Source: Mycobacterium noviomagense (GTDB lineage Bacteria > Actinomycetota > Actinomycetes > Mycobacteriales > Mycobacteriaceae). From it: 64,000 nucleotides of DNA. The notes beneath the pieces were generated by a model that did no database searches, was not told the origin of the DNA, and was given only the letters and a program-made list of their open reading frames with translations. Shown here piece by piece: positions 1 to 61,281 of this stretch. The position numbers were made by a program, and so were the translations under genes. The stretch is from positions 3,038,001-3,102,000 of the forward strand of contig NZ_AP022583.1 in the NCBI RefSeq assembly GCF_010731635.1, given 5' to 3'. Each line of letters begins with the position of its first letter. The first letter of the stretch is position 1.

Positions 1-53
1 GCTGTGATGGTTGTGGCTGACGGACCTGAGAAGTTAGACCAAGGAGATATCCG

Positions 54-45602: not shown

Positions 45603-45603
45603 C

Positions 45604-46035: not shown

Positions 46036-46070
46036 CTACGCCGGTTGTTACCGAGACGCGCCTCGAGCGC

Positions 46071-46099
46071 TTCATTCTGAACAAAAATTAGGTTATAGT
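46071..46099 (+). promoter_or_regulatory. Promoter with island palindrome, copy 1
   Basis: TTCATT (46071-46076) and TATAGT (46094-46099) are 17 bases apart. The palindrome copy GAACAAAAATTAGGTT (46079-46094) fills the spacer. It heads the rightward LLM oxidoreductase operon, so a bound repressor would block RNA polymerase. Confidence 0.6.
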
Positions 46100-46163
46100 C
46101 GGCGTGTTTTCGCGGGACTACACGCGAAATGCTTGGAGCAATCCGAATCGATCGGCAACACTG

Positions 46164-47144
46164 ATGTTCACGCTTAGGTTCGACATGCGGGCGCCTGAGA
46201 AAGGTGCTCGGCCGAGCGATCTTTACGCCGCCGCGATCGAGATGTGCGCGTGGGCAGCAACACGCGGCGCAATTGTCGCGGTGCTCTCCGAGCATCATGG
46301 CACCGACGACGGACATCTACCCTCTCCGCTGATATTCGCCGCGGCGACCGCTGCTCGGACCGAGCGCCTAGCGATCATCCTTGTCGCCGTGCCTATCCCG
46401 TTCTGGGATCCGGTCCGGCTGGCCGAAGAGATGGCCGTGTTGGACATCATCAGCAACGGCCGCGTCACTTATGCGTTCGGTATTGGGCATCGGGCTGAAG
46501 AATACGAGCACTTCGGCGTGGACATGCGCCGACGCGGGCGGCTCGCGGGCGAGAATCTGGCCTTGCTGCTCGAACTGCTCAAGGGAGAGGCGGTGATCCA
46601 CGAAGGCCGGCGTATCCACGTGACGCCGCGGTGCGCCACCAACGGCGGCCCGAATATCATGCTCGCGGGTGGCAGCCCGGCTGCCGTCAAGCGCGCCGCG
46701 AAGCACGGCCTTGGCTTCATTTCGCAGACGAATAACCCTGCACTGAAAGAGCTTTATGAGTCGCAATGCCGGGCCAACGGACACGCGCCCGGGTTTACGC
46801 AGTTCCCCGACGGCAGCGCACCGACCGCTGTGTTCGTCGCGGACGACGTGGATGGCGCGTGGAATGAGCTGGGACCGTATCTGCTTCACGATGCAATGAC
46901 GGCGGCGGCATATCGGCACGGCGACGACACCGTGGCAAGCATTTCCCGGGCCCAGACTGTGGAGGAACTGCGTGCCGCACCAAGGCCTTACCGCATTTTC
47001 ACGACCGATGAAGCAACCGAGTATGTGCGTGGCGGCCGCAGCTTGCCACTGCTACCGCTGTGCGGCGGCTTACCGCCCGGCCTCGCCTGGCCATACCTTG
47101 AGCGAGCCGCATCGGCAGCGGCACAAGCGCACGAGAACGCCTGA
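46164..47144 (+). CDS. LLM-class (luciferase-like, probably F420-dependent) oxidoreductase
   Basis: A 326-aa TIM-barrel oxidoreductase. N-terminal FTLRFDMRAPE, then SEHHGTDDGHLPSPLIFAAA (active-site His region), ISNGRVTYAFGIGHR and NIMLAGGSPAAVKRAAKHG are all typical of LLM flavin or F420 enzymes. In mycobacteria most use F420. It may act as monooxygenase or as dehydrogenase on the island's substrate. The ATG at 46164 is used; the upstream in-frame codons overlap the promoter region. First gene of a three-gene operon. Confidence 0.85.
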   Translation: MFTLRFDMRAPEKGARPSDLYAAAIEMCAWAATRGAIVAVLSEHHGTDDGHLPSPLIFAAATAARTERLAIILVAVPIPFWDPVRLAEEMAVLDIISNGRVTYAFGIGHRAEEYEHFGVDMRRRGRLAGENLALLLELLKGEAVIHEGRRIHVTPRCATNGGPNIMLAGGSPAAVKRAAKHGLGFISQTNNPALKELYESQCRANGHAPGFTQFPDGSAPTAVFVADDVDGAWNELGPYLLHDAMTAAAYRHGDDTVASISRAQTVEELRAAPRPYRIFTTDEATEYVRGGRSLPLLPLCGGLPPGLAWPYLERAASAAAQAHENA

Positions 47145-47167
47145 AAGCCAACAACAGAGGGAGGGAG

Positions 47168-48244
47168 ATGGCCGTGAATCACATTCGCGTCGTGGTCTGG
47201 TCGACCGGGGGTGTCGGCTCCATCGCCATCGACGCGATTCGGCGCCGGCCGGACCTTCAGCTCGTCGGGGTCTGGGTGCATTCCCCGGCGAAGGTCGGGC
47301 GCGACGCCGGCGAGCTGGCCGGCGGCCCGGCGATCGGTGTGTCCGCGACCAACGATGCCGATGCGCTGATCGCGCTGCAGCCAGATTGCGTCGTGTATGC
47401 CGCCAGCGGCCCGCAGCGCGATGCCGACGCGGTGCCCGACTATCTGCGGTTGCTCAAGGCGGGGATCAACGTTGTGTCAACCACCTCAACAAGTCTCGTC
47501 TACCCGCCGGCATACTTTGCGGCCGAATGGCGCGACCAGCTCCAAGAAGCGGCGACGTCCGGGGAGGCCTCGTTCTACGCATCCGGAATCTTCCCGGGGT
47601 TCGGTTCGGACCAGCTGGCTCTGGTTTTGACGACACTGTCGAAGAGAATCCGCGCCGTCAAGGCGACGGAGGTGGCGCTTAACGACCACTACCCGGTGGC
47701 CAGCGTCATGATGGACGGGATGGGGTTCGGCCGGCCGCTTGATTTCGAACCGATGCTGAAGACGCCCGGGTTCATCGAAATGGCTTGGAGCGCACCGATA
47801 CACCTGATCGCCGACGGCCTCGGGGTCAAAGTGCAGGAGCTACACGGCTCACTCGAGCGGCAGTTGACCGATCGGGACATCGAAGTCGCGTTCGGCACGA
47901 TCAAAGCGGGGACATGTGGGGCGGTCTGCACCCGGGCTGCCGGCGTTGTCGAGGGTCGGGAGGCAATTGTGATCGAGCACATCATCCGGATGGCCCGCGA
48001 CGTGGCGCCCGACTGGTTGAGCTCCGAACACGACGCCACTTACCGCGTGGACATCGAGGGTGATCCCGACATTCACTGTGCCATGACGCTCGGCGATGTC
48101 CAAGGTCACGGGGCCGGGCGGGGCGCGATGACGGCTACCGCAACGCGCGTCGTCAACGCCGTTCCCTACGTGGTGGAAGCACCAGCGGGACTGCTCAGTT
48201 CGCTCGACCTGCCGCTAACTCTGCCCCGCCACGCCGTCGAATAG
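47168..48244 (+). CDS. NAD(P)-dependent dehydrogenase of the DapB/diaminopentanoate dehydrogenase-like type
   Basis: A 358-aa protein with an N-terminal Rossmann domain (VVVWSTGGVGSIAIDAI, residues 8-24) and a DapB-like continuation (VVSTTSTSLVYPP, FYASGIFPGFGSDQ). The family is annotated as dihydrodipicolinate reductase-like or 2,4-diaminopentanoate dehydrogenase; mycobacteria carry many paralogs in lipid-catabolic loci, so an amino-acid role is unlikely here. GAGGGAGGGAG directly precedes the ATG. It lies 23 bases after the LLM gene. Confidence 0.82.
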   Translation: MAVNHIRVVVWSTGGVGSIAIDAIRRRPDLQLVGVWVHSPAKVGRDAGELAGGPAIGVSATNDADALIALQPDCVVYAASGPQRDADAVPDYLRLLKAGINVVSTTSTSLVYPPAYFAAEWRDQLQEAATSGEASFYASGIFPGFGSDQLALVLTTLSKRIRAVKATEVALNDHYPVASVMMDGMGFGRPLDFEPMLKTPGFIEMAWSAPIHLIADGLGVKVQELHGSLERQLTDRDIEVAFGTIKAGTCGAVCTRAAGVVEGREAIVIEHIIRMARDVAPDWLSSEHDATYRVDIEGDPDIHCAMTLGDVQGHGAGRGAMTATATRVVNAVPYVVEAPAGLLSSLDLPLTLPRHAVE

Positions 48245-48260
48245 GCGCACGAGAATCACG

Positions 48261-48905
48261 ATGCGAATCGATCGTGAACTTGTGTTCGCTGCAGTCGCGG
48301 ACGAGCGGCGCCAGATGGCGACGCTGCTCGACGACTTGAACGATACGCAGCTGTCGACGCCAAGCCTATGCGCAGGTTGGGACATCAAGACGGTTGGCGC
48401 ACATTTGCTCAGCGTGTGCACTGACAGCTTCTGGACGTTCCAGGGAATGGCTCTGCGACGCGGGAGTCTTGATCGCGCTATCGATGAGCTGGCGCGACGG
48501 CGCGCGCAGTTACCAGCCACACGGATCGCCGCCGCACTGCGGTGCCACGCTGACCGCAGGGTCAGTCCACCGGTATTCGGACCACTTGACCCGTTGGCCG
48601 ACATATTGGTGCATGGTGGCGACATCAGGATTCCGCTCGGTATGGCCTTCAATCCAGACCGGGAACGCGCAGCGCTCGCGCTTGATTTCCTGACAAAGCC
48701 ATGGCGATTCGGTTTCGTGCCAATAGGCTTCCTGTGCGGGATTCGCTTGTGTGCCATTGATATCGACCGGTCTTGGGGAACGGGAGCGGAAATCCGGGGG
48801 CCGGTAGCGGCGTTGATGATGACGGTCTGCGGCCGCAGCGCGCTACTTCACCAGCTCGAGGGACCCGGCTTACAACCACTCCATGATCGTCTCGCGCGCC
48901 GATAA
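48261..48905 (+). CDS. Maleylpyruvate isomerase N-terminal (mycothiol-dependent, DinB-like) family protein
   Basis: A 214-aa four-helix-bundle protein of the mycothiol-dependent enzyme family. The segment LCAGWDIKTVGAHLLS carries the conserved W and H of the metal site, and VHGGDIRIPLGM the second conserved H-D pair. Enzymes of this family isomerise or conjugate via mycothiol. It is last in the rightward LLM operon and converges on the SDR gene with a gap of 3 bases. The specific reaction cannot be assigned. Confidence 0.8.
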   Translation: MRIDRELVFAAVADERRQMATLLDDLNDTQLSTPSLCAGWDIKTVGAHLLSVCTDSFWTFQGMALRRGSLDRAIDELARRRAQLPATRIAAALRCHADRRVSPPVFGPLDPLADILVHGGDIRIPLGMAFNPDRERAALALDFLTKPWRFGFVPIGFLCGIRLCAIDIDRSWGTGAEIRGPVAALMMTVCGRSALLHQLEGPGLQPLHDRLARR

Positions 48906-48908
48906 CAG

Positions 48909-49751
48909 CTACGTCAGCGACACGCGCCCCATGATCAGGTCGATGATCGGCTTACCGGGCGCCCACGACCCGGTAAGCGACGACATCACGTGACCGTTGT
49001 CGACGAGAAGAGTGACGCCGCTGATGCCGCACGCGGCATCGCTGTTCAAAAAAACCATCGCGTTGGCCATCTGCTGCGGCGTGTGGATCTCGCAGCCGGT
49101 CGCATCCCGGTAGTCCTGGGCAAAGGTCAGCCAGAGATCGGCATTCGCCCGGGCAAGCGGCGTATCGGTCGGGCCCGGGCAGATCGCGTTGATGCGCACA
49201 CCCTTGGCCAAGAACGGGTACGCCTTTGTCGCGACGTATGCGTTGATCGCCTGCTTACTGAAGCCGTAGTGGATGATCCCTTCCGGCTCATGGGCCTTCG
49301 CCCAGGCGTCGGCCGACTCGTAGTCGGGTGTCGCCAGGAACTCCTGCAACCGCGGCAAATCACTTTCCCAACCGATGCCGCCCACAGATGAGATAAAGCA
49401 GATCGCCGAACCGCGGGGGAGTCGGCCATCGGCCAGCATCGTCTCGATCAGATGCCGGTGCCCGATGAAGTTGATACGCATCAGCTTCGGCCCGTCCGCC
49501 ACGCCGGCCGCCGAGAAGATGGCGTGGACAGGTCCGTCGACCTGCTCGAGAGCGGAGTCGATCGACGAGCGATCAGACAGGTCGACCTGCACCGTTTGCG
49601 CAACCTCGTACGGCACCGGGGCGTAGTCCATCACGACCACATGGGCGCCGAGCTCCGCCGCGGTCTGGGCTGCGGCAGCGCCCATTCCGGTGGCGCCGCC
49701 GACGACGAGCACCCGCTTGCCGTCGTATCGGAACTGATCGATGGCCGTCAT
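48909..49751 (-). CDS. SDR oxidoreductase (coniferyl-alcohol dehydrogenase-like)
   Basis: A 280-aa short-chain dehydrogenase with GGATGMGAAAA as cofactor motif (about residues 18-28), a D (VVMDY) that favours NAD, a catalytic Ser in ICFISSVGG and YGFSKQA as the YxxxK motif. The layout, with an insert between Ser and Tyr, matches coniferyl-alcohol dehydrogenase-type or 3-alpha-HSD-type SDRs. It is a one-gene leftward unit behind palindrome copy 2. AGGAGAG lies before the ATG. Confidence 0.85.
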   Translation of the reverse strand: MTAIDQFRYDGKRVLVVGGATGMGAAAAQTAAELGAHVVVMDYAPVPYEVAQTVQVDLSDRSSIDSALEQVDGPVHAIFSAAGVADGPKLMRINFIGHRHLIETMLADGRLPRGSAICFISSVGGIGWESDLPRLQEFLATPDYESADAWAKAHEPEGIIHYGFSKQAINAYVATKAYPFLAKGVRINAICPGPTDTPLARANADLWLTFAQDYRDATGCEIHTPQQMANAMVFLNSDAACGISGVTLLVDNGHVMSSLTGSWAPGKPIIDLIMGRVSLT

Positions 49752-49789
49752 GGCTCTCCTCTCTGAGGCTACTGCAGAAGCACAAAAGC

Positions 49790-49819
49790 ACTCTACGCGG
49801 AACATATATTTGGTTTCAA
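49790..49819 (-). promoter_or_regulatory. Promoter with island palindrome, copy 2
   Basis: On the minus strand TTGAAA (49819-49814) and TAGAGT (49795-49790) are 18 bases apart. The palindrome GAACATATATTTGGTT (plus-strand reading, 49800-49815) covers the spacer. The SDR start is 38 bases downstream of the -10. Confidence 0.7.
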
Positions 49820-49831
49820 TAGGTTCGGCGT

Positions 49832-51208
49832 TCAGCCCGTGCGCTCGGCGACTCCGCGCACCACCGTGTCGCGCGCAAGGCTCAGCGCGGTCTGTTTCCC
49901 CTGGGTCCGAACGATGTTTTCGGGCATCCACAGAACGTCCATGACGCAGCGCGAGAGCATCTCGAGCGAGGGGCTGTCAATGCGGATGTCTTTAGACCTA
50001 ATCCCGTCGGATAGCAACGATTTGAGTTGTCGCAGCCGCATGGTGAACAACAAGCCGGGATTGGGCGTATCCGGTGGAGACTGGCGCATCCATGCCAGCT
50101 GGATCTTCCACTCGTCCGGGAAGCGGTCCAACGCATTGATGTTGATCCAGGTCAGTGCGTCGAGCTTTTCGACGGGTGTTGCATCAGCGCGAAGGACGCT
50201 GGCAAATCCTCCGCCGGCCTTGTGGCCGAACGACTCCATGATCGACGCGAGAAGTTCGTCCTTCGAGCCGATCAGTCGGTAGACGGTGCCGGTGCCGAGT
50301 CCAGCGGCCGAAGCGATGTCTCTGATGGTGGTGACTTCGTAACCTTTGCGGCCGAATTCGGCTCGCGCGACCGCGCGGACATACGCGGCCTTGTCGTCGA
50401 CCTCAGACTTAGTCTCCTCGACCCATGTCTCGATGGCTTCTTCCGCGACCGCAAACGCCTTGGAATTGTTCAATTCCTGGTCACTGGGCGGTCGGCTTGC
50501 GAGCCCCTGCAACATGATGCGGCACAATAGCGCTGCGGCCTGGTCGGCGACAGCGGTGTGCCGGATGATGTCAAGCCCGACATGCATCATCGACTGGCAA
50601 ATGCGGTCGGCCAGCGTGGGCAGATCGATATCGGCTCTGATGTAGCCGCTCCACCTGCCGGCCCGCAACGTCTGCAGCATCGCCTCCTGCACGGCGGTGG
50701 GTGGCTGCCGCAGGAGTGCAACGAGTTCCCGATTGGCGCTCGGCGCCTCATAGAACGACATCTGCAGCGCGGCGCGATGCTGCACGGCACACCGCGCGAT
50801 CGCCGCACCCAGCTCGACGATCTGTTCGGAGATCGGACGCGAGCCGGGGTCATCCAGTCTGTCGTGGGCGATTTCGCCGATGCGCTCCAGATCGGCGTGA
50901 TATCGCCGGACCAGTTCGACCAGGATCGCTTCCTTGGACTCGAAATGGTGATACAGGCTTCCGGGAAGAATGCCCGCGGCGTCAGCGATCTCCTGCAGCG
51001 ACGTCCGTAAGCCCGAAGACGCGATCAACGAAGCAGCGGTCTGGAGGATTTCGGTCCGCCGCGTCCCGTCGTCGTAGGCTCCTCCGGCATCCTTGCCGGC
51101 AGCCCCAGAGCGGGAGCGGCCAGCCCGTACCGGCACCTTGTTGTCGCGTGCCTCTAGGCGGGCAGGGTTCGCGGAGACCGTAGCCCGGGCCGGTTGCTGA
51201 AGCCCCAC
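49832..51208 (-). CDS. Transcription regulator with two TetR domains in tandem (Mce3R-like layout)
   Basis: A 458-aa protein made of two complete TetR units. HTH 1 is at about 71-91 (SLQEIADAAGILPGSLYHHF) and HTH 2 at about 294-315 (TIRDIASAAGLGTGTVYRLI), each followed by an all-helical ligand domain. Only a few TetR proteins have this layout; Mce3R of M. tuberculosis, repressor of a lipid-catabolism regulon, is the known case. One chain can bind an asymmetric palindrome. GGAGGTGTT precedes the GTG start. It is the only regulator in the island and thus the best candidate to bind the five palindromes. Confidence 0.88.
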   Translation of the reverse strand: MGLQQPARATVSANPARLEARDNKVPVRAGRSRSGAAGKDAGGAYDDGTRRTEILQTAASLIASSGLRTSLQEIADAAGILPGSLYHHFESKEAILVELVRRYHADLERIGEIAHDRLDDPGSRPISEQIVELGAAIARCAVQHRAALQMSFYEAPSANRELVALLRQPPTAVQEAMLQTLRAGRWSGYIRADIDLPTLADRICQSMMHVGLDIIRHTAVADQAAALLCRIMLQGLASRPPSDQELNNSKAFAVAEEAIETWVEETKSEVDDKAAYVRAVARAEFGRKGYEVTTIRDIASAAGLGTGTVYRLIGSKDELLASIMESFGHKAGGGFASVLRADATPVEKLDALTWININALDRFPDEWKIQLAWMRQSPPDTPNPGLLFTMRLRQLKSLLSDGIRSKDIRIDSPSLEMLSRCVMDVLWMPENIVRTQGKQTALSLARDTVVRGVAERTG

Positions 51209-51386
51209 AACACCTCCACGGCGCCGGATTGCGTCCTGGTCGGGCCGAAACGCCGACCCAACTTTTGGTTTACGCTACCAGAGGGTAACCTCGCTGTGCG
51301 CCCGCTGAACGGGCACGCGCCGCCCGAACCCCGTAGCTATGTCGGGTTTGCTGTCAAGGCGCCTGACACGTTCATCAGTGCTACGT

Positions 51387-52034
51387 CTAAATGGTCGGGC
51401 CGTCCCACCCGTTGACGGCGACCACCTCCTCGAGTGGCCGTCGACGTGCCGGGTGAAACGTCTTGCCGTGGCGCAGACGGCCAACCGGAAGGAGGCACCC
51501 CTGCACGTAACTGTCCGGGATGCCGAGCAGCTCGCGGACGGCGTCCTCGTGGTGCAGGTGCAGCGTCGTCACGCAGGTCCCGTAACCGCGGGTATGCAGG
51601 GCAAGCTGGAAATTCCACACCGCCGGGAAGATCGAGCCGTACAGGGTGGCCTGGTGGAACGACTCGTCGCCGTCGATGCGTGGCAAATATGGTTCATAGC
51701 AGGGGATTACGAGCAGCGGCACTTTCGCCATGTTCTCGACGAGCCACTCGGTCGACGACATCAGACGCCCACCAGGGGTGTCGGCGGGCACCAATTCGGC
51801 GACCATCTGGCCGCCCACCCGCAGCAGGTAGGCGTCGCGGTACAGCCCGGCGATCTTCTCGCGCAGCGTGGGGTCGGTGACCACGAGCCAGCGCCAGGAC
51901 TGTTGGTTGGATCCGTTGGCCGCCTGTAATCCGATGCGAAGGCAGTCACGGATGTCGCCGAGGTCGAGGGGCGCATCCAGATCGAGCGACTTTCGGGCCG
52001 ACCGGGTTGCGGTCAGTAGGTGCTCGATGTCCAC
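51387..52034 (-). CDS. Nitroreductase-family flavoprotein
   Basis: A 215-aa FMN-dependent nitroreductase-like protein: N-terminal TATRSARKSLD (FMN phosphate region), AANGSNQQSWRWLVV, a central insert and GIPDSYVQGCLLPVGR near the C-terminus. Family members reduce nitro groups, enones or flavins, or dehalogenate. GTG 52034 lies 10 bases after the amidohydrolase stop; a TTG start at 52073 would overlap it. Second gene of the leftward amidohydrolase operon. Confidence 0.83.
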   Translation of the reverse strand: MDIEHLLTATRSARKSLDLDAPLDLGDIRDCLRIGLQAANGSNQQSWRWLVVTDPTLREKIAGLYRDAYLLRVGGQMVAELVPADTPGGRLMSSTEWLVENMAKVPLLVIPCYEPYLPRIDGDESFHQATLYGSIFPAVWNFQLALHTRGYGTCVTTLHLHHEDAVRELLGIPDSYVQGCLLPVGRLRHGKTFHPARRRPLEEVVAVNGWDGPTI

Positions 52035-52044
52035 GAGACTGCAG

Positions 52045-53331
52045 TCAGTTCGACGTCGGTAGCTTCGCGGCAAGGTCCAGCACTGTCACGGTGTCCGTGC
52101 CGGTCTTCTTGAGCCGTGCGGAGGATCGGTAACCCAGGTCGACGTCTTTGGCCTGCGCCCGCAGGGCGCCGACGGTGGCCTGCTCACGTGGGATGTGTTT
52201 GAACAGGTCGAACGAGAAAAGCCGGATGGCGTTCTCGTGGGTGATCTTGTTGATCTCGTCGTCGGGCACACCGTCGAGGTAGATGGCCAGCGTCTCCGGC
52301 GCGACCGGCCAGGTGGAATCGGAATGCGGATAGTCACATTCCCACGTGATCATGTCGATGTTGAGCTTGTGGCGGCTCTCGATGCCGAAGCCGTCGTCGA
52401 TGAAGCAGGTGATGATCCGCTCGTTGAACACATCGCTGGGCAACTTGTCGCCGAAATCCTGATGCGTCCAGGCCCGGTGCATCTTGTAGACGCGGTCGAT
52501 GCGTTCGAGGAAGTACGGGATCCAGCCGATCCCGCCTTCGGACAACGCGAACTTCAGGTCGGGAAACTTGCGCAGCACCGGCGACCACACTAGGTCGGCG
52601 GCGGCGTTGACGATGCTCATCGGCTGCAGGGTGATCATCGTGTCGACTGGCGCCTCGATCGATGTGATGACTACTGACGACGACGAGCCGATGTGCAGGC
52701 AGACGACCGTGTTCTCGTCGTTGCAGGCCTGCCAGAACGGATCCCAATGCGGGTTGTGCAGTGAGGGATACCCGAGTTTTTCCGGGTTCTCGGAGAACGT
52801 CACCGCGTGGCAGCCCTTCTTGGCCACCCGCCGCACCTCCTCGGCCATCAACTGCGGGTCCCAGATCGGCGGCAGCGCGAGCGGAATCATGCGACCGGGG
52901 TACGTGCCGCACCACTGGTCGATGTGCCAGTCGTTGTAGGCACGCAGAACCGTCAGGCCGAGGCCCTTGTCCTTTGCGCGAGCGAAATATTGACCGCAGA
53001 ACTGCGGGTAGGACGGGAAGTTCATCGCGGCGACGACACCGTTGGCGTTCATGTCGCGGATCCGCTCATGGATGTTGTAGCAGCCCTCGCGGATCTCGCT
53101 GAGTTTGGTTGGCTCGGCGCCGTACTCGTCCGGTGGGCGGCCAGCGACCGCATTCAGACCGACATTGGTCGCTTCCTGCCCTTCGAATACCCAGGCGTCC
53201 GTGCCGTCGGGTCGCTGGATCAGCTTGGGCACATCGTCCTTGTATTTCTCGGGGATGTGACCCTCGAACATGTCGGGGGGTTCGACGAGGTGGTCGTCGA
53301 CGGAGACCAGGATGAAGTCGTCCATTTTCAT
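52045..53331 (-). CDS. Amidohydrolase 2 (COG2159) family metal-dependent hydrolase
   Basis: A 428-aa TIM-barrel hydrolase or decarboxylase. The N-terminal metal motif has VDDHLVEPPDMF (His14); CLHIGSS (metal His in the middle), and ITWECDYPHSDSTWP (active-site Asp) are seen. This subgroup is common in mycobacterial catabolic loci and related to aminocarboxymuconate-semialdehyde decarboxylase-type enzymes, so ring-product hydrolysis or decarboxylation is possible. AAGGAG lies 8 bases before the ATG at 53331. Confidence 0.88.
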   Translation of the reverse strand: MKMDDFILVSVDDHLVEPPDMFEGHIPEKYKDDVPKLIQRPDGTDAWVFEGQEATNVGLNAVAGRPPDEYGAEPTKLSEIREGCYNIHERIRDMNANGVVAAMNFPSYPQFCGQYFARAKDKGLGLTVLRAYNDWHIDQWCGTYPGRMIPLALPPIWDPQLMAEEVRRVAKKGCHAVTFSENPEKLGYPSLHNPHWDPFWQACNDENTVVCLHIGSSSSVVITSIEAPVDTMITLQPMSIVNAAADLVWSPVLRKFPDLKFALSEGGIGWIPYFLERIDRVYKMHRAWTHQDFGDKLPSDVFNERIITCFIDDGFGIESRHKLNIDMITWECDYPHSDSTWPVAPETLAIYLDGVPDDEINKITHENAIRLFSFDLFKHIPREQATVGALRAQAKDVDLGYRSSARLKKTGTDTVTVLDLAAKLPTSN

Positions 53332-53363
53332 GGTGTCTGCTCCTTGTGCGTCCGACGAGCGCG

Positions 53364-53392
53364 ACTTTACTGTGGAACAGATATTTGGTCAA
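53364..53392 (-). promoter_or_regulatory. Promoter with island palindrome, copy 3
   Basis: On the minus strand TTGACC (53392-53387) and TAAAGT (53369-53364) are 17 bases apart. The palindrome GAACAGATATTTGGTC (53375-53390) lies over the spacer and -35. It serves the amidohydrolase operon and, being between divergent genes, may also act on the rightward AveC operon. Confidence 0.75.
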
Positions 53393-53412
53393 CAAAGTCG
53401 GGAGATCGGGCC

Positions 53413-53529
53413 GTGGGCGCTGTCATCATGTTGGGCACGCTATTCGGATTGATCGTCCTGATATTCGGTCTGGTGCAACACTTCGACCCGGAAGCACGTC
53501 GTGCTCCGAGCCAAGAGCGTGATCGATGA
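53413..53529 (+). CDS. Single-pass membrane micropeptide coupled to the AveC-family gene
   Basis: A 38-codon frame from GTG 53413 (or 33 codons from ATG 53428) encoding one TM helix (MLGTLFGLIVLIFGLV) and a short charged tail. Its TGA overlaps the ATG of the AveC-family gene (ATGA), the same coupling used by the subunit pairs in this island. That supports translation and a role as a small membrane partner of the AveC-like protein. No homology can be judged at this length. Confidence 0.55.
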   Translation: MGAVIMLGTLFGLIVLIFGLVQHFDPEARRAPSQERDR

Positions 53530-54311
53530 GCGCCGAGTTGACGTCCCTGCTGAAGGCGGCGATCGGCTTCGCCTACGTCGGAGGCGTCGCGTTTGTCGCA
53601 ATTGGCGTGTACCTGAGCTATCGCCAGCGCCGCCTGCACCCACTCCTGCTCCTGTGCATCTCGGCGATCTCGTTCTCGTGGATCGAGGCCCCCTACGACT
53701 GGGCGATGTACGCGCAGTTCCCCCCTGCGCTGCCTCGCATGCCGTCGTGGTGGCCATTGAACATGACGTGGGGCGGGCTGCCCTCGTCCGTGCCGATCGG
53801 CTACATCTCCTACTTCGTGCTGCCCGCCGTGATCGGCGCGACGCTCGGTCGATGGTTGAGCGCGAAGTTTCGCTGGCGCAGACCCGCCACGCTCCTTACT
53901 GTCGGGCTCGTCGTCGGGTTCTGCTGGGCCTTCCTCTTCAACGCGATCGTGGGAGCCCGGTTGGGCGTCTTCTACTACGGCCGTGTGATCCCAGGGCTGG
54001 GACTGTGGGAAGGGACCAAGCACCAGTACCCGATCTACGACTCCCTGGCGATGGGCGTGCAGATGATGGTCTTCACTTACCTGCTTGGGCGGACGGATTC
54101 CGAAGGACGAAATGTCATTGAAATGTGGGCCGACAAGAGGTCGACGAGCCGACTTCAATCGTCGGTTCTGTCCGTCATCGCCGTCGTCGTCATCGGAAAC
54201 GTCCTCTACGGAGCTGTTTTCGCGCCTCATCTCGTGACCAAGCTGGCCGGTTGGGTGACCGCCGGCCCCACGGCACAGTTGTTCCCCGGTGTAGCGAACC
54301 AGCCCCGGTAG
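53526..54311 (+). CDS. AveC-family (spirocyclase-like) integral membrane protein 1
   Basis: A 261-aa protein with about six TM segments and conserved polar residues between them (WIEAPYDWAMYAQFPP, YISYFVLP, KHQYPIYDS). It resembles the AveC family, whose founding member in Streptomyces shapes the spiroketal of avermectin; related mycobacterial proteins are known only from genomes. A membrane-bound enzyme acting on a hydrophobic substrate is likely. The larger paralog lies at 61282-62409. Confidence 0.72.
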   Translation: MSAELTSLLKAAIGFAYVGGVAFVAIGVYLSYRQRRLHPLLLLCISAISFSWIEAPYDWAMYAQFPPALPRMPSWWPLNMTWGGLPSSVPIGYISYFVLPAVIGATLGRWLSAKFRWRRPATLLTVGLVVGFCWAFLFNAIVGARLGVFYYGRVIPGLGLWEGTKHQYPIYDSLAMGVQMMVFTYLLGRTDSEGRNVIEMWADKRSTSRLQSSVLSVIAVVVIGNVLYGAVFAPHLVTKLAGWVTAGPTAQLFPGVANQPR

Positions 54312-54324
54312 GCGATCGCAGTAA

Positions 54325-55254
54325 CTACGTAGTGATTCCCAGCCGCTCGCAGACGCCGAAGACTTCCTCGAAAATCGATCCCGGCACGGTGAACGGTTCG
54401 GTGGCCGACACCTCGGCCAGATGCTCAGCGACGTCTTCGACGGTCGGTTTGCTTCCCGGCTCGGCGAGCCAGCCCTGGCCGAGCCCGACGAACACCCGCG
54501 CGAAGCGCCCAGCACAGGCGGAGTAATTCTGATGAGTGAGGTCACACTCGCGGCTGGCCAGGAAGACGACCATGGGGACGACCAGTTCAGGCTGGATGAC
54601 TTTCAGAAAGCCCAGTTCTTCAAGCGCTTTCGCGTCGCCGACGGTTTCGGTGACCATGCGGGAAAACCCGAACGGCAGCACGGTGTTGGCCAGGATCCCG
54701 TGCTCGGCGCCTTCGATCGCGATGACGTTGGTCAGCCCGACCAGGCCGGCTTTGGCCGCGGCGTAATGCGCTTCGAGTGGCTGGCCGAACATCCCGCCGG
54801 ACGAGGAGATGAACACGAACCGGCCGTAGCCCTGGGTCTTCATCACCCGATAGGCGGGCTGGCTCAGATAAAAACCGCCGTCGAGATGCACGCTGAGCAT
54901 GCGTCGCCAGTCTTGAGGCGACAGCTCCTCGAACGGGATGCTGTTGAAGATGCCGGCGTTGCTCACCACCGCGTCGAGGCGGCCGAACCGGTCGAGGGCG
55001 GCGCGCACGATCGTCTCACCGCCTTCGGGGCTGTCGACCGAATCATGCGACGCCACTGCGGTGCCGCCCGCCCGCTCGATCTCCTCGACGACCTGGTCGG
55101 CGACCGTGGCGTCCGACCCCTCTCCGTGCATGGTTCCGCCGAGATCGTTGACGACCACAGCGGCGCCGCGGCGCGCCAGCTCGATCGCGTACAGCCGGCC
55201 AAGGCCTCGCCCTGCTCCGGTGACGATGGCGACCTGGTCGGTGAAGTTGATCAT
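54325..55254 (-). CDS. SDR oxidoreductase (17-beta-HSD type 4-like)
   Basis: A 309-aa SDR with TGAGRGLG (residues 12-19), NNAG-equivalent SNAGIFNS, catalytic SSSGG and YAAAKAG. The segment VVNDLGGTMHGEG is typical of the dehydrogenase part of peroxisomal multifunctional enzyme type 2, which oxidises 3-hydroxyacyl-CoA in beta-oxidation of branched or steroid side chains. It is the third gene after two acyl-CoA dehydrogenases, with ATGA overlap, so a beta-oxidation step is likely. Confidence 0.87.
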   Translation of the reverse strand: MINFTDQVAIVTGAGRGLGRLYAIELARRGAAVVVNDLGGTMHGEGSDATVADQVVEEIERAGGTAVASHDSVDSPEGGETIVRAALDRFGRLDAVVSNAGIFNSIPFEELSPQDWRRMLSVHLDGGFYLSQPAYRVMKTQGYGRFVFISSSGGMFGQPLEAHYAAAKAGLVGLTNVIAIEGAEHGILANTVLPFGFSRMVTETVGDAKALEELGFLKVIQPELVVPMVVFLASRECDLTHQNYSACAGRFARVFVGLGQGWLAEPGSKPTVEDVAEHLAEVSATEPFTVPGSIFEEVFGVCERLGITT

Positions 55255-56357
55255 GCGTTGCTCCTTGCCAATTGGTGTACGAGTTGCGCACCGACCTCCT
55301 CGAGGTAGCGGTCGGGTCCGCCATGGAACGACTGCCAGTTCAGAAGGCGCTTGAGATAGAGATGGGCATCGTGCTCCCAGGTGAAGCCGATACCGCCGAA
55401 AACCTGGATCGCGGTGTCGCCGACGGAGGCCAGCTGGCAGGCGAATGCCTTGGCGCGCACGGCGGCCAAGTGCCGCTCGTGGGACTCAGCGGCGTCGGCA
55501 GCCCACAGCGCGTGCATGACACCGCCACGTACCAGCTCGACGGTTTCGAACATGTCGACGCACAGATGCTGAATCGCTTGGAACGAACCGATCGGTTGGC
55601 CGAATTGCTTGCGCACCTTGGCATATTCGACTGCTGAATCCATGACCGCATGGGCAGCGCCGAGCGCGTCGGCGGCAGAGGCGATCAGCACGTCGTCGAT
55701 GAGCGCGTCGACCGTATCCGGGGAGCCGACGGCGAGACGCTGCGCCGGGGCATCGTCAAGTGCGACGCGGAACTGCTTGCGGGTCTGATCGATTCCCGGC
55801 TGCGGTGTTACAGCGACACCGGGGGAGGAGGTCTCCACTGCGAAAAGCGCTGTGCCGTCGGGGTCGTTACCCAGCACCAGCAGCACGTGTGCCGCGGCAG
55901 CGTCCGGTAGCTGGGCGATCTCGCCATGCAGCGCCACCCGACCGCCTTCCTCGCTGGCCCTCGGCAGCGATCGGTCGAAGTCCAAAGGGCCCACCGTGGC
56001 AATCGTGGCGCCGGCCGCGATCCCGGCCAAGAGCGCGGCTTCCTCAGCGCCAAATCGGGTCAGCGCACGAGTCGCCGCGACTGCGCTCGATAGCCAAGGC
56101 CCCGGGTAAAGCGCCGCACCCAGTTCCTCGAGGACGATCCCGGCTTCCACCATGCTCATGCCAGCACCGCCGTGCCGTTGCGGCACCAAAAGCCCTGTGG
56201 TTCCGAGGTCGGCAAGGCCTCGCCAGACGTCCCATGTCATGCCCGTCGGATCATCAAGTAGAGGGCGCACGTGACCGGCGATCGTGGCTTTTTCGGCAAG
56301 GAACCGCCGCACGGTGTCGCGAAGGGCCAGCTGCTCGTCGCCCATCTCGAGGTTCAT
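55251..56357 (-). CDS. Acyl-CoA dehydrogenase, subunit-like protein 2
   Basis: A 368-aa acyl-CoA dehydrogenase fold: N-terminal helical domain, middle beta domain and C-terminal helices with RKQFGQPIGSFQAIQHL and QVFGGIGFTWEHDAHLYLKR. It is shorter than its neighbour and reads like the beta-type subunit of the alpha2-beta2 acyl-CoA dehydrogenases that mycobacteria use for steroid side chains (FadE pairs). Both neighbours overlap by 4 bases. Substrate unknown. Confidence 0.88.
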   Translation of the reverse strand: MNLEMGDEQLALRDTVRRFLAEKATIAGHVRPLLDDPTGMTWDVWRGLADLGTTGLLVPQRHGGAGMSMVEAGIVLEELGAALYPGPWLSSAVAATRALTRFGAEEAALLAGIAAGATIATVGPLDFDRSLPRASEEGGRVALHGEIAQLPDAAAAHVLLVLGNDPDGTALFAVETSSPGVAVTPQPGIDQTRKQFRVALDDAPAQRLAVGSPDTVDALIDDVLIASAADALGAAHAVMDSAVEYAKVRKQFGQPIGSFQAIQHLCVDMFETVELVRGGVMHALWAADAAESHERHLAAVRAKAFACQLASVGDTAIQVFGGIGFTWEHDAHLYLKRLLNWQSFHGGPDRYLEEVGAQLVHQLARSNA

Positions 56358-57511
56358 TTGCGCGGCAACCCCAGGACGCGTTGCGCGGTGACGTTCTTGT
56401 TGATCTGCGTCGTGCCGCCGGCAATCGTGAGCGAGCGCGAGGCCAGCCGGCGCTCAGCCCACCGACCATTGGCGGCGACGGGCCCAAGCACGTCGAAAGC
56501 TAGTGCGGCAAGGTCTTGCCCGAGCTCGCCCCATATCGTCTTGGCCAGGCTGGCCGACGCGAAGGCGTCGCCACCGTGCAGCATCGCCGAAATCGACCGC
56601 TGGCAAAGCACTTCCAGGTACTTGGTCCGCACCGCCAGCTCTCCAAGGCGGCGCAGCGTCACGGGATCCTGCAGCGCCGGCCGGCCGTTGACCGCGATCC
56701 CCGCCAGATCGGCCACCAGATCCTCGAGCTGCACCTGCAATCCGGCGTATAGCCGCGCTGCTCCGGCACGCTCATGGCTGAGCGTGGTGGTGGCGACCTG
56801 CCAACCCTGGTTTTGCGGGCCGAGCAGCGCATCCGCCGGCACCCGCACATCGTCGAAGAACAGCTCGGCGAAATCGGCTTCTCCCGTGAGGGTCACGAGA
56901 GGCCGGGCCTGAATGCCCGGTAATGCCATGTCGACGATCAGGCATGAGATCCCCTTGTGCTTCGGCGCTTCCGGGTCGGTACGCACGTACAGCTGGCACC
57001 AATCAGCTCGGTGCCCAAGCGAAGTCCAGATCTTCTGACCGTTGACCACGAAATGGTCTCCGACCCGCACCGCTTTAGTACGCAGCGAGGCGAGATCCGA
57101 TCCAGCCTCAGGTTCCGACATTCCCTGACACCAAATATCGTCGGCGCGAACCATCCGGGGAAGCAGCGTGCGTTTCTGCTCCTCGGTTCCGTACTGCATG
57201 ATCGCCGGCGCGATGTTGTTGATCCCGATGACGTTGAGCGGGACAGGCATCCGTGCCCGAGTTGTCTCCTCGGCGTACACGAGCTGCTCCAGCACCGTCG
57301 CGCCGCGACCGCCGTACTCACGCGGCCAAGAAACGGCCGCCCAGCCTGCGTCCGCGATCGTCGCGTTCCATGCCCGCAGCGTCTCGAATGCAGCATCGTC
57401 GCGGCCGCCCATGCGGCCCGCGGCCACAACGTCATCGGTCAGGTTGGCAGACAGCCACGCCCGCAATTCATTGCGAAAGTGCTCCACTTCGGCAGGGTAT
57501 GAAAAATCCAC
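56354..57511 (-). CDS. Acyl-CoA dehydrogenase, subunit-like protein 1
   Basis: A 385-aa acyl-CoA dehydrogenase. CQGMSEPEAGSDLASLRTKA and the KIWTSLGHRADWC strand form the FAD site, and the C-terminal TIAGGTTQINKNVTAQRVLGLPR replaces the common YGGTxEIQ motif. Together with the next gene it probably forms a heterotetramer. GTG 57511 is used. First gene of a three-gene leftward operon under palindrome copy 4. Confidence 0.9.
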   Translation of the reverse strand: MDFSYPAEVEHFRNELRAWLSANLTDDVVAAGRMGGRDDAAFETLRAWNATIADAGWAAVSWPREYGGRGATVLEQLVYAEETTRARMPVPLNVIGINNIAPAIMQYGTEEQKRTLLPRMVRADDIWCQGMSEPEAGSDLASLRTKAVRVGDHFVVNGQKIWTSLGHRADWCQLYVRTDPEAPKHKGISCLIVDMALPGIQARPLVTLTGEADFAELFFDDVRVPADALLGPQNQGWQVATTTLSHERAGAARLYAGLQVQLEDLVADLAGIAVNGRPALQDPVTLRRLGELAVRTKYLEVLCQRSISAMLHGGDAFASASLAKTIWGELGQDLAALAFDVLGPVAANGRWAERRLASRSLTIAGGTTQINKNVTAQRVLGLPRK

Positions 57512-57553
57512 GGTGTCCTGTCGGCCTCACACGTTTGACTGCGGCCAAGCCGA

Positions 57554-57582
57554 ACTCTACGGTGGAACAGATATTTGGTCAA
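57554..57582 (-). promoter_or_regulatory. Promoter with island palindrome, copy 4
   Basis: On the minus strand TTGACC (57582-57577) and TAGAGT (57559-57554) are exactly 17 bases apart, a near-ideal primary-sigma promoter. The palindrome GAACAGATATTTGGTC (57565-57580) is identical to copy 3, and the identity extends over 22 bases (57562-57583). It lies between the acyl-CoA dehydrogenase operon and the NorD-like gene. Confidence 0.78.
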
Positions 57583-57612
57583 CCAGACGCCACCCTGCCG
57601 GAAGAGGGCTCC

Positions 57613-59268
57613 GTGGAAGAAGCAGACAGTCTGCGGCGCTTCAACCTGCTTGCCTCCGCGCTCGCAGGCCGCACGGTGCAGGTCGCAGCGGGCATGCCTG
57701 GCGAGCCGGCCTGGACCGACGGCAGCCTCATCTTCCTGGACCCGGCCACCAGCGTCCGATTCCAGCTCGAAGCGCTAGCCATCCAGGCGTCGCTGCTCGC
57801 AGCCGGAAGCCTCGAACCTGCGATCACGCGCAGGCTCAACCGGCGCTCCGCGGTGGCGCGGCGATACTTGGCCATCGAAGGCCATCGGGCGCTGACAACA
57901 AACGAGGATCTGCTGCCGTTGTCGGTGCGCCCGCTGATCGACCGGGAGCTCGCAGCGCGAACCGATTCGCCCGCCGCGTCGCTGGCCGCTGCGCGGAGCC
58001 GCGAGGCGATCGCCGACCCGCCCATGGTATTCGGAGAGATTCGTGCGCGAAAACTATTGGCTTTCAAGGAGAAATTGCACACGACCGGCCAGCACATCCC
58101 GCGTCAGCAGCGTGACCAGGTACTCGCCGAACTCGACGACGACAACGCCGGGAACGCTGTCGATATGTTCTCAAGCCCGATCGGCGGCGGCGGTGCGCTG
58201 GGCCGGTTGTTCCAGAAGATGCTCGGTGCGGTGCGCCGGCTGGGTGAGGGCGGCCAGCCCGGGGCGGATACCCCGACGCACCGGAAGCGCTCCACTCCGC
58301 GAGGTGGCGCCAGCGCCGTCGTCTCCAACCGCATGGCGCCAGCGGTGGACGGGGCCGAGGAAGAAACCGGCGGCACAAAGTATCCCGAATGGGACATCTA
58401 CCGGCGCCGGTACCGGCCGGACTGGTGCACGGTGCACGAGGTGGAGCCGCTGCCTACGGGTAGCACATCGACGGGAATGTGGGGCGGTTACGGTGTGCGT
58501 CGACCGCTCGCCCGCCTCGGGCTGGGTCTGGACCGGTACCACCGACAGCCTCAAGGCGACGACATCGATATCGACGCCGCGGTCGAAGAACGCGTGGAGC
58601 TGATGGCCGGCTCCGCCCCCGACGAGGCAGTGTACGTCGACAGCCTTCGCCGCCGCCGCGACCTTGCCGCGCTGCTTTTGCTCGATGTCTCCGGCTCGGT
58701 GGCCGAGCCCGGCGCGATCGGTGAGACCGTACACACGCAACAGCGCGCGGCGGCGGCTGCGTTGACGTCTGCTCTCCATGATCTCGGTGATCGTGTGGCG
58801 CTGTATGCCTTTCACTCGCAGGGCCGCTCGGCGGTGCACCTGATGCCGGTGAAGCGCTTCGACGACAACCTCGACGCCCTGGTGATGCGGCGACTCAGCG
58901 GGCTGAAACCAGGCGCGTACTCCAGGCTGGGGGCGGCGATCCGGCACGGCGCCGCAGTGCTGGAGAGCCGGGGCGGCACGCCACGTCGGCTGCTGGTCGT
59001 GCTGTCTGACGGTCTGGCGTACGACCACGGCTATGAACGCGTGTACGGCGCCGCCGACGCGCACCGTGCGCTTGCCGAGGCCCGCCGCCGGGGCATCGGA
59101 TGCCTGTGCCTGACGGTCGGCGCCAGTACGAATGTCGATGACCTGCAGCGGGTATTCGGCAGCGCCGCGCACGCGACTATTCCGCGGCTCGAGGAACTCG
59201 GTCAGGCCATCGGACCGCTGTTTCGCTCGGCGCTGGGCTCTGCTGATGTTCGACGGCGGGTGGCGTAG
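57613..59268 (+). CDS. VWA-domain protein of the NorD/CoxE/CbbO type
   Basis: A 551-aa cytosolic protein with a long helical N-terminal part, an acidic middle segment and a C-terminal VWA domain. The MIDAS is intact: DVSGS at residues 358-362, Thr-type loop YSRLGAAIRH and LSDGLAYDH. NorD, CoxE and CbbO proteins pair with a MoxR ATPase to activate a metalloenzyme. The GTG at 57613 follows GGAAGAGGG; upstream in-frame codons cross the promoter of the opposite operon. Followed directly by the NorQ-like gene. Confidence 0.83.
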   Translation: MEEADSLRRFNLLASALAGRTVQVAAGMPGEPAWTDGSLIFLDPATSVRFQLEALAIQASLLAAGSLEPAITRRLNRRSAVARRYLAIEGHRALTTNEDLLPLSVRPLIDRELAARTDSPAASLAAARSREAIADPPMVFGEIRARKLLAFKEKLHTTGQHIPRQQRDQVLAELDDDNAGNAVDMFSSPIGGGGALGRLFQKMLGAVRRLGEGGQPGADTPTHRKRSTPRGGASAVVSNRMAPAVDGAEEETGGTKYPEWDIYRRRYRPDWCTVHEVEPLPTGSTSTGMWGGYGVRRPLARLGLGLDRYHRQPQGDDIDIDAAVEERVELMAGSAPDEAVYVDSLRRRRDLAALLLLDVSGSVAEPGAIGETVHTQQRAAAAALTSALHDLGDRVALYAFHSQGRSAVHLMPVKRFDDNLDALVMRRLSGLKPGAYSRLGAAIRHGAAVLESRGGTPRRLLVVLSDGLAYDHGYERVYGAADAHRALAEARRRGIGCLCLTVGASTNVDDLQRVFGSAAHATIPRLEELGQAIGPLFRSALGSADVRRRVA

Positions 59269-59272
59269 CGAA

Positions 59273-60067
59273 ATGCGCGGACCGCGACCCTACTACGTAC
59301 CCGTCGGCAACGAAGAGCAGATCTTCAAAGCTGCCTTCCGGCAGAGGCTTTCGATTGTGCTCAAGGGACCGACCGGGTGCGGCAAGACTCGATTCATCGA
59401 AGCCATGGCGCATGACCTGGACCGGCCGCTGATCACCGTAGCCTGCCACGACGACTTGACGACCGCGGATCTGGTCGGGCGGTTTCTGCTGAAAGGCGGC
59501 GAGACGGAGTGGGTCGACGGCCCACTGACGCGGGCCGTGCGCGAAGGCGCGATCTGCTACCTCGACGAGGTTGTCGAGGCCCGCCAAGACACCACCGTCG
59601 TCCTGCATCCCTTGGCAGATCACCGCCGTCAGCTCCCGATCGAGCGGCTCGGCATCACACTGGACGCCGCGCCGGAATTCTGCCTTGTGGTGTCGTATAA
59701 CCCGGGCTACCAGAGCGTGCTCAAGGATCTCAAAGACTCAACGCGGCAACGAATGGTCGCGATCGAATTCGGCTTCCCCGCGCCGGACGTCGAGGAGAAG
59801 ATCGTGGCGCACGAAGCTGGCATCGACCACGACAAGGCTGCCGAGCTGGTGCGGTTGGGCCAGGCGATCCGCCGCCTGGAAACCGCGGGGCTGCGCGAGG
59901 TGGCCTCGACGAGAGTGCTCGTTGCGGCGGGCCAGCTGGTGGCCGAAGGACTGACCCTGCGCGAAGCCGCACGCGCTGCGATCGCCGGGCCCCTCACCGA
60001 CGACTCCGTGGTGTCGAGCGGGCTCGTCGAGATGATCGACGTGTACCTGAGCGACCACCCCAGTTGA
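59273..60067 (+). CDS. NorQ/CbbQ-type MoxR AAA+ ATPase
   Basis: A 264-aa AAA+ ATPase with Walker A GPTGCGKT at residues 32-39, the NorQ/CbbQ signature TVACHDDLTTADLVGRFLL, Walker B AICYLDEVVEARQD and sensor VVSYNPGYQS. It belongs to the NorQ/CbbQ branch, distinct from MoxR3 of this window. The ATG at 59273 is 5 bases after the NorD-like stop. Probable role: ATP-driven remodelling of an enzyme with the VWA partner; the client is not obvious. Confidence 0.87.
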   Translation: MRGPRPYYVPVGNEEQIFKAAFRQRLSIVLKGPTGCGKTRFIEAMAHDLDRPLITVACHDDLTTADLVGRFLLKGGETEWVDGPLTRAVREGAICYLDEVVEARQDTTVVLHPLADHRRQLPIERLGITLDAAPEFCLVVSYNPGYQSVLKDLKDSTRQRMVAIEFGFPAPDVEEKIVAHEAGIDHDKAAELVRLGQAIRRLETAGLREVASTRVLVAAGQLVAEGLTLREAARAAIAGPLTDDSVVSSGLVEMIDVYLSDHPS

Positions 60068-60073
60068 CGATGA

Positions 60074-60120
60074 TTGACGGTCGCCACAGCCACCGCTAGG
60101 GTCAGAACAAATATTAGGTC
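60074..60120 (+). promoter_or_regulatory. Promoter with island palindrome, copy 5
   Basis: TTGACG (60074-60079) and TAGGGT (60097-60102) are 17 bases apart. The palindrome GAACAAATATTAGGTC (60105-60120) lies directly after the -10, over the expected transcription start, 46 bases before the substrate-binding-protein gene. Confidence 0.7.
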
Positions 60121-60165
60121 GTACCGCACAGTCGTTGCGCAGACCGCCAGAGACCCGGAGGTCAG

Positions 60166-61278
60166 ATGTCCTACGAGAGCACCGCCGAGCCGATCAAGAT
60201 CGGCTACCTGATGGACTTCCGGCTGCCCGAGGGCTTTCCGGAGACGTACTTCGAGGACTTGACGCAGCCATTCGACCTGGTCTTCAAACAAGCCACCGAA
60301 CACGGCCTGCTCGACCGTTCCATCGAAATCATCTACCGGGAGGTGGAAGGACTACCCAAGGGGTCGGTCAAGGCGGTCATCGATGCTTACGGCGAACTGT
60401 GCGACGAGGGCTGTCTGGCAATCTTCGGCCCGAGCATCACGGACAATGCGGTTCCCACGCGAGAGGCGATCGAGGAGCGTTTCAAGGTGCCGGCAATCAG
60501 CGTCACCGGCTCAGACGCAGCGCTTGGAGAATGGTTTTTCTCTTTCCCGATGGGATCGCTGACAGACGAGCCGATTTTCTGGTCGGATCTGCTTGCCAAA
60601 GGCGGCCACACCGAGGTCGGTGTGCTGAAGGAGCGGTCACTGGTTGGCGAGACCTACCTGGCGAACTTCCGCGAGGCCTGCAAGCGCAAGGGAATCCGCA
60701 TCGTGGCGGAGGCATCGATCGCGCAGACAGGCCAAGACATTTCGGAGGCGGTACGGACACTGTACGAAGCGAAAGCACCGGCGATTGTGCACTGCGGCTT
60801 CGGATTCGGAATCGTGTTCATCAACCCTGCCCTCGAAGCGCTGGACTGGGACCCGCCTCGCTTCACCAGTACCGCGTTCCAAAACGCGTGGCTCAACCCG
60901 ATCATGTGGAACGCATTCATGGGCTGGGTCGGAATCGACCAATACGACGAGGGCAACCTGGTGGGACAGAAGTTCCTCGACGAATACAACGAGGCCTACG
61001 GTCGGCGCCCGGAGTGGTGCGTGCCGGTCGTCAACCGCGACATCGCGATGACGTTAGTGCGTGCATTGAGCGACGCACATCCATTAAGCCCCAGGGGCGT
61101 AAAAGAAGCACTGGAGCGGGTGAAGATGATGCCGGCCGCCTCCGGCGCACCCGGTACCAGGGTTTCGTTTGGCAACTGGACACGACGGGCCTGGATGGGC
61201 GCCGGCTACCTGGTAGCCCGCAAACTCGACGCGGACGGCGTCACCTCCCATCTTGTCGCCCGCTTCGGTGAGGAGTGA
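60166..61278 (+). CDS. Periplasmic-binding-protein type I (ABC substrate-binding) fold protein without signal peptide
   Basis: A 370-aa protein of the Leu/Ile/Val or amide-binding protein family (Peripla_BP_6): KIGYLMDFRLPEG at the start, IFGPSITDNAVPTREAIEE, and ISVTGSDAALGEWFF form the N-terminal lobe. No signal peptide or lipobox is present; MSYESTAEPIKIGY begins directly with the first strand, behind CCCGGAGG. So it is likely cytosolic, as a ligand sensor or carrier, unless exported by another route. No ABC permease or ATPase is nearby. Confidence 0.82.
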   Translation: MSYESTAEPIKIGYLMDFRLPEGFPETYFEDLTQPFDLVFKQATEHGLLDRSIEIIYREVEGLPKGSVKAVIDAYGELCDEGCLAIFGPSITDNAVPTREAIEERFKVPAISVTGSDAALGEWFFSFPMGSLTDEPIFWSDLLAKGGHTEVGVLKERSLVGETYLANFREACKRKGIRIVAEASIAQTGQDISEAVRTLYEAKAPAIVHCGFGFGIVFINPALEALDWDPPRFTSTAFQNAWLNPIMWNAFMGWVGIDQYDEGNLVGQKFLDEYNEAYGRRPEWCVPVVNRDIAMTLVRALSDAHPLSPRGVKEALERVKMMPAASGAPGTRVSFGNWTRRAWMGAGYLVARKLDADGVTSHLVARFGEE

Positions 61279-61281
61279 CCA

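Follow-up and report, generated by a model that had tools for sequence, protein, structure and literature searches.

A conserved 16-bp motif as the probable operator of a double-TetR regulator in a catabolic gene island of Mycobacterium noviomagense

Results

The 16-base pair (bp) motif GAACAnATATTwGGTy stands at the operon heads of a gene island in Mycobacterium noviomagense. It is very probably the operator of a double-TetR protein encoded in the same island (49832..51208, minus strand), and would thus define a conserved, self-regulated repressor regulon for a catabolic pathway of the cytochrome P450 and acyl-coenzyme A (acyl-CoA) type. The island was studied in a 64,000-nucleotide (nt) stretch (the window, bases 3038001-3102000) of the genome, which is a single contig of 4,779,798 bases. 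A sequence-only reading had placed five copies of the motif at 46079, 49800, 53375, 57565 and 60105, and the letters match at each of these positions, four copies being exact and the one at 46079 having one mismatch. With up to three mismatches the window contains eight matches, i.e. the five copies and three of these same sites read on the opposite strand, while dinucleotide shuffles of the window gave on average 0.52 matches and reached eight in none of 100 cases. A mismatch-tolerant pattern search of the whole genome with at most one mismatch returned the five island copies only. Four further sites have exactly two mismatches, three of them inside open frames (L006, L007 and L009) and one outside (L008); the reversed-pattern control gave one site with up to two mismatches. 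The sequence observation behind the motif is confirmed.

All five copies lie at promoter-like sequences. The copy at 46079..46094 (GAACAAAAATTAGGTT, plus strand) occupies the spacer of TTCATT-17-TATAGT, a promoter with a weak -35 (TTCATT) ahead of the luciferase-like monooxygenase (LLM) operon, and its last base is the first base of the -10. The copy at 49800..49815 (GAACATATATTTGGTT, given like the others on the plus strand) lies within the minus-strand promoter TTGAAA-18-TAGAGT of SDR1. The copies at 53375..53390 and 57565..57580 have the same sequence (GAACAGATATTTGGTC). The former lies in the minus-strand promoter TTGACC-17-TAAAGT of the amidohydrolase operon and just beyond the plus-strand TTGTGC-18-TACTGT of an AveC-like gene, the latter in the minus-strand TTGACC-17-TAGAGT of the acyl-CoA dehydrogenase operon and just beyond the plus-strand TTGACT-17-TACGGT of the VWA/AAA+ operon. 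At both, the plus-strand promoter-like sequence ends one base before the operator, so that a single site is common to the two genes of each divergent pair. The arrangement of the 57565 type is also present in relatives. The copy at 60105..60120 (GAACAAATATTAGGTC, plus strand) is located just beyond TTGACG-17-TAGGGT, the promoter of the operon for the binding protein, AveC-like, SDR, aldehyde dehydrogenase and P450 proteins. A simple promoter fit agrees with the earlier description, in which four copies lie in 17-18-nt spacers and the fifth past a -10: the copies at 46079, 49800, 53375 and 57565 are mostly inside such spacers and touch a -35 or -10 edge. In a consensus promoter scan of 45600-64000, three of the four promoter-like sites found were at operators, and shuffles gave 2.3 such sites on average. 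Every operon inferred in the island has a site, as had been claimed, and the operons may be switched as one, although this second part of the claim is better put as a proposal.

The regulator is present in 121 of 198 genomes of the genus (E-values up to 1e-20), and its closest named relative, from Mycobacterium xenopi, is 91 % identical. The sites of relatives were collected from 80 named loci around the regulator, the best 80 of 311 relatives. With up to two mismatches these contain 294 sites, as compared to none for the reversed motif, although the loci are related, some from the same species, and the site counts are not independent events. For 283 of the 294 sites an island-gene ortholog starts no more than 200 bp downstream, compared to 1395 of 16000 random positions (8.7 %), and no site is inside a mapped gene body, compared to 6417 of 16000 random positions. 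The earlier reading had offered as its own check whether the motif is as common away from promoters; these numbers, together with the genome search, answer that it is not. The largest classes of sites precede the regulator (56), the binding protein (52), the AAA+ gene (44) and SDR1 (35), followed by four classes in the VWA/acyl-CoA dehydrogenase/SDR2 region (24, 22, 19 and 10), the amidohydrolase (9) and LLM (8); smaller classes have 10 sites and others 5. SDR1-class sites occur in 34 of the 80 loci and binding-protein-class sites in 52, with a promoter at 51 of these 52. A promoter of the form TTG[AC]NN-16..18-TANNNT was found within 45 nt of 208 of the 279 sites in ten classes (the fifteen sites of small classes were outside this test), and of 207 of 215 sites when the regulator and LLM classes were left aside, compared to 80 of 5000 random windows and 35 of 365 site-free windows upstream of genes. 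Operators overlapping promoter elements, as in TetR-family repressor regulons, are thus found in relatives as well.

Two side observations were made in these loci. In 44 of the 80 loci an additional site (GAACAGATGTTTGTTT), symmetric in most cases and accompanied by a promoter of its own, lies between the VWA and AAA+ genes, before the latter; the window, where the VWA and AAA+ genes overlap, is without it. One locus (L133, DOUU01000019.1), labelled as a deltaproteobacterial metagenome-assembled genome, has an exact site together with regulator, VWA, AAA+ and AveC-like genes, and looks like a mis-binned mycobacterial contig.

A sixth, diverged site, which the earlier count of five had overlooked, lies on the minus strand at 51255..51270 and reads AACCAAAAGTTGGGTC. 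It is 1 nt beyond a -10-like TAGCGT (51277-51272) and about 47 nt ahead of the point where translation of the double-TetR gene could first start. All ten aligned sequences (the window, L040 and eight loci out of the 80) share the TAGCGT/operator block, CTGGTAGCGT..AACCAAA..TT.GGT/GTT, and the regulator-class sites mentioned above (with up to two mismatches, in 56 of 80 loci) mostly read TAACAAAGATTTGGTT. In the window the sixth site is symmetric at positions 3/14. An operator variant thus accompanies the regulator's own promoter, as in TetR-family repressor regulons, and 51255-51270 is a probable autoregulatory site of the double-TetR gene, judged by its position and conservation.

The architecture of the operator was analysed with 165 distinct sites having at most one mismatch. 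Conservation extends over a core of 16 bp, although it is partly built in because the set was selected by the motif, and beyond the core only promoter letters stand out. G14 occurs in all 165 sites and A3 in 95 %, so that the two halves differ. Among 289 sites with up to two mismatches, 231 have the A3/G14 asymmetry and 43 are symmetric at these positions. The motif had been described as an imperfect palindrome with 12 of 16 positions matching in the best copies; a count by eye gives this for 53375, 57565 and 60105, but over the collection the site is better described as a mostly asymmetric pseudo-palindrome. The sites that go with the L163 homologs have GAGCAA left halves and an unchanged GGTT half, which is suggestive of the assignment of helix-turn-helix motifs to half-sites, the cases being too few for more.

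The regulator of 458 amino acids has two Pfam TetR_N stretches, and so belongs to the double-TetR (Mce3R-like) proteins. The predicted structure is confident (pTM 0.83), and in a fold comparison covering solved structures it aligned with one Mce3R chain over residues 42-451 with 17 % identity. According to this model, the protein would fold as a Mce3R-like fused, asymmetric pseudo-dimer. Its two helix-turn-helix motifs are not identical, the recognition regions differing in every aligned sequence: the first half has GSLYHHF, and the second has GTVYRL or variants of it.

The presence of the regulator and that of the site go together. Exact sites were sought in 196 genomes of the genus, of which 116 have both regulator and site, four the regulator only (G053, G142, G165 and G186), two the site only and 74 neither. 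An exact site therefore occurs in 116 of 120 genomes with the gene compared to 2 of 76 without it, and the reversed motif in none of the 196. The two site-only genomes, G005 and G147, are fragmented assemblies (720 and 700 contigs) and also carry the binding-protein gene. With up to one mismatch the corresponding numbers are 118, 2, 9 and 67, and the reversed motif then occurs in 5 of the 196 genomes; besides the G005 and G147 sites, the genomes without the regulator have eight one-mismatch sites in seven genomes, four in open frames of at least 150 codons and four not. Among the matches listed, 115 of the 120 regulator-bearing genomes have the binding-protein gene, and five regulator-free genomes (G066, G072, G141, G158 and G184) have distant matches to it (E-values 1e-80 to 1e-93).

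The regulator and its target genes are largely inherited together, so that co-occurrence alone does not single out the regulator as the binder. Three further observations help it in this role. Five regulator-bearing genomes (G053, G119, G142, G183 and G186) have no binding-protein match among those listed, and G119, G142 and G183 of these keep a site with at most one mismatch. In G053 (locus L172) the 30 kb fetched contain the regulator but no further mapped island gene; a site is located 60 nt upstream of the regulator, beside a TAGCG-type box. Related sites are also found near distant homologs: GAACAAATGTTAGGTT and GAACAGATGTTTGGTT near double-TetR proteins of 44-45 % identity in Cryptosporangium genomes, and GAGCAAAGATTTGGTT and GAGCAATTATTTGGTT near two double-TetR copies (33-40 %) in another genus. 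For the distant homologs at L143 and L159-L163, none of 100 dinucleotide shuffles came up to the position weight matrix (PWM) maximum of the real sequence; for L144 a single shuffle did. As a separate observation, G178 and G096 (L142/L143 and L147/L148) each have a further regulator copy that has diverged (51 % and 59 %), with a partly paralogous gene set and related sites of its own.

The first operon of the island (plus strand) encodes the LLM (46104..47144), a DapB/DAP-dehydrogenase-like oxidoreductase (47168..48244) and a mycothiol-dependent maleylpyruvate-isomerase-like protein (48261..48905). The first start codon of the LLM gene coincides with the predicted transcription start, and hence the true start is probably further in. 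On the minus strand follow SDR1 (48909..49748), for which the nearest NCBIfam model, coniferyl-alcohol dehydrogenase, is below cut-off, then the regulator, a nitroreductase-fold protein (51387..52073) and an Amidohydro_2 protein (52045..53331). The AveC-like spirocyclase-family protein 1 (53526..54311) is on the plus strand. It is preceded by a short frame at 53413-53529 (plus strand, about 33-39 codons, MLGTLFGLIVLIFGLV..FDPEAR) with an ATGA overlap with the AveC-like gene; comparable frames were seen in four of the five relatives compared, and the product may be a small membrane protein that partners AveC-like proteins. The minus-strand operon 54325..57511 encodes two acyl-CoA dehydrogenases (56354-57511 and 55251-56357) and SDR2 (54325-55254). 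The remaining genes are on the plus strand: a VWA/CoxE-like protein (ending at 59268, its frame open from 57253 and its start probably near 57613) and a CbbQ/NorQ-like AAA+ ATPase (59228-60067), a pair spanning 57613..60067, and the operon 60166..63999 with a Peripla_BP_6 protein (60166-61278), AveC-like 2 (61282-62409), SDR3 (62390-63289) and an aldehyde dehydrogenase (from 63286 to beyond the window), after which a cytochrome P450 lies outside the window (L140:2793-4004). The N-terminus of the Peripla_BP_6 protein (MSYESTAEPIKIGYL) has no evident signal peptide by eye, and the protein is perhaps an intracellular binding or sensing protein.

The best solved relative of the Amidohydro_2 protein is DitZ (8uyr; names as given in the PDB), with an almost end-to-end match (E-value 2e-114), and PtmU3 is the second. 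This likeness bears on the pathway only. Together with the P450 and the acyl-CoA dehydrogenases it points to a cyclic terpenoid or steroid-like substrate, which is a lead and not a result. We take 'dit' to refer to diterpenoid degradation and PtmU3 to be a diterpenoid thioesterase; the literature found left this point unsettled, and the searches on DitZ and diterpenoids gave nothing decisive on the pathway.

Discussion

The guess that the double-TetR protein binds the motif is supported by its co-occurrence with the site, by the sites near distant homologs and by the variant site at its own promoter. We suggest that the two unlike TetR halves of one polypeptide would pack together as a pseudo-dimer, so that one molecule could lay two non-identical recognition helices on unlike half-sites (GAACA.. 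and, on the other strand, GACCw..). The bound protein would cover the spacer, the -35/-10 edge or the transcription start and shut out RNA polymerase. The LLM, SDR1, amidohydrolase/nitroreductase, AveC-like, acyl-CoA dehydrogenase, VWA/AAA+ and binding-protein operons and the regulator gene itself would in this way be held off until a small molecule of the pathway, perhaps a CoA thioester by analogy to KstR2, released the protein.

Several observations weigh against such a regulon, or against parts of it. A TTG-type -35 is nearly absent in the regulator class of sites (1 of 56) and absent in the LLM class (0 of 8), where the sites of relatives, like that of the window, run into TATAGT-like letters. 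The asymmetry is not universal, the symmetric sites being chiefly those of the class before the AAA+ gene (T14 in 38 of 44). The PWM score of the sixth site, 6.7, is within the shuffle range, and the evidence for this site is therefore its conservation. For two of the 120 regulator-bearing genomes, G053 and G186, the search with one mismatch allowed found no site, and near the regulator copy of G186 nothing scores 12 or more. A close binding-protein gene (E-value below 1e-190) is found in no regulator-free genome except G005 and G147, and the genomes of the genus are not independent of one another.

Among the alternatives, the one that survives best is that the double-TetR protein does bind the sites but acts as an activator or a dual regulator. 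Some proteins of the TetR family, such as LuxR/HapR and FasR, are activators. The sites, however, span the -35, the spacer and the -10 or the start and are not upstream of the -35, which is in line with the repressor-type placement claimed in the earlier reading, and we consider activation improbable. Slightly less probable still is that another TetR protein, most likely KstR2, reads the sites. By sequence, the single-TetR proteins nearest to the regulator are KstR2 and the KstR2-like 2ibd, and the core AACARATATTwGGT is in register with the KstR2 motif AnCAAGnnCTTGnT (PMC3068626) around the centre. The inner G:C pair of that motif is, however, A:T in the five island sites. The five places in the genome with an exact KstR2 motif (three in the reversed control) are all outside the island, two of them, 7 kb apart, having the letters of published KstR2 sites, and no exact 16-mer site was found in 74 of the 76 genus genomes that lack the double-TetR gene. 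That the 16-mer is itself a promoter element, an extended -10 or a sigma-factor element, would agree with its coincidence with promoters in most site classes, but its position relative to the -10 varies (in the spacer, beyond the -10 or across its start), both strands are served and most genomes without the double-TetR gene lack it, which leaves this explanation very unlikely. Chance or a spreading repeat is hardly credible, as no shuffle in 100 reached the observed count, the reversed controls are near zero, the site collection has little flank conservation beyond promoter elements and the conservation data contradict it.

As a more far-reaching and clearly more doubtful proposal, to be taken as a whole, the double-TetR regulator may represent a second, widespread class of fused double-TetR repressors, separate from Mce3R. 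Such a class would control an undescribed terpenoid-like catabolic regulon (DitZ-type amidohydrolase, P450, AveC-like, acyl-CoA dehydrogenase). Of the mycobacterial species sampled about three fifths would have it, and other actinobacteria would have related regulators and operators. The fusion would allow a single chain to read a hybrid operator, an invariant KstR2-like first helix reading the WGGTy half and a more variable second helix the GAACA half.

In the literature searched, the five 14-letter motif strings gave no match and no description of the double-TetR subfamily or its regulon was found; within that scope the island regulon looks undescribed, fused TetR regulators as such being already known. 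Double-TetR repressors are a recognised but little-studied subfamily. A distinct subfamily with a compact, exactly defined operator, a set of target genes and a conserved promoter layout opens binding, asymmetry and inducer to tests with short probes. It also provides a handle on the catabolic pathway of the island, which includes two AveC-like proteins, a P450 and an AAA+/VWA pair and occurs in many mycobacteria.

Among the closest known systems is Mce3R of Mycobacterium tuberculosis (PDB 9b7y), a double-TetR repressor whose structure, according to the 2024 paper, was the first for this subfamily. In sequence the two are distant, as phmmer and profile searches matched Mce3R over about 90 residues of the N-terminal half only, and the island regulator is not a Mce3R ortholog by full-length match. 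The sites differ as well: Mce3R is reported to bind two 25-bp nonpalindromic sites 53 bp apart, whereas the island promoters examined have single 16-bp pseudo-palindromes and no such 25-bp pair.

KstR2 is among the nearest solved relatives of the regulator, and its half-site AnCAA, spanning positions -7 to -3 relative to the centre, is found in the island operators in the same register and around the same centre (AACAr, the other half being ACCwA). KstR2 is, however, a single TetR protein with a symmetric site, while in the island operators the symmetric motif with inner G:C is not found, the halves are mostly unlike at positions 3/14 and the DNA-binding domains are fused. KstR (PMC1995591) is an autoregulated repressor of a catabolic regulon with a 14-bp palindrome (TnnAACnnGTTnnA) partly over the -10. 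It differs from the island regulator in site and spacing and has no full-length match to it, the NCBIfam KstR model giving a weak hit, below cut-off, on the second half. The likeness is one of design: the island regulator similarly has a probable operator partly over the -10, candidate autoregulation and catabolic genes as its putative targets.

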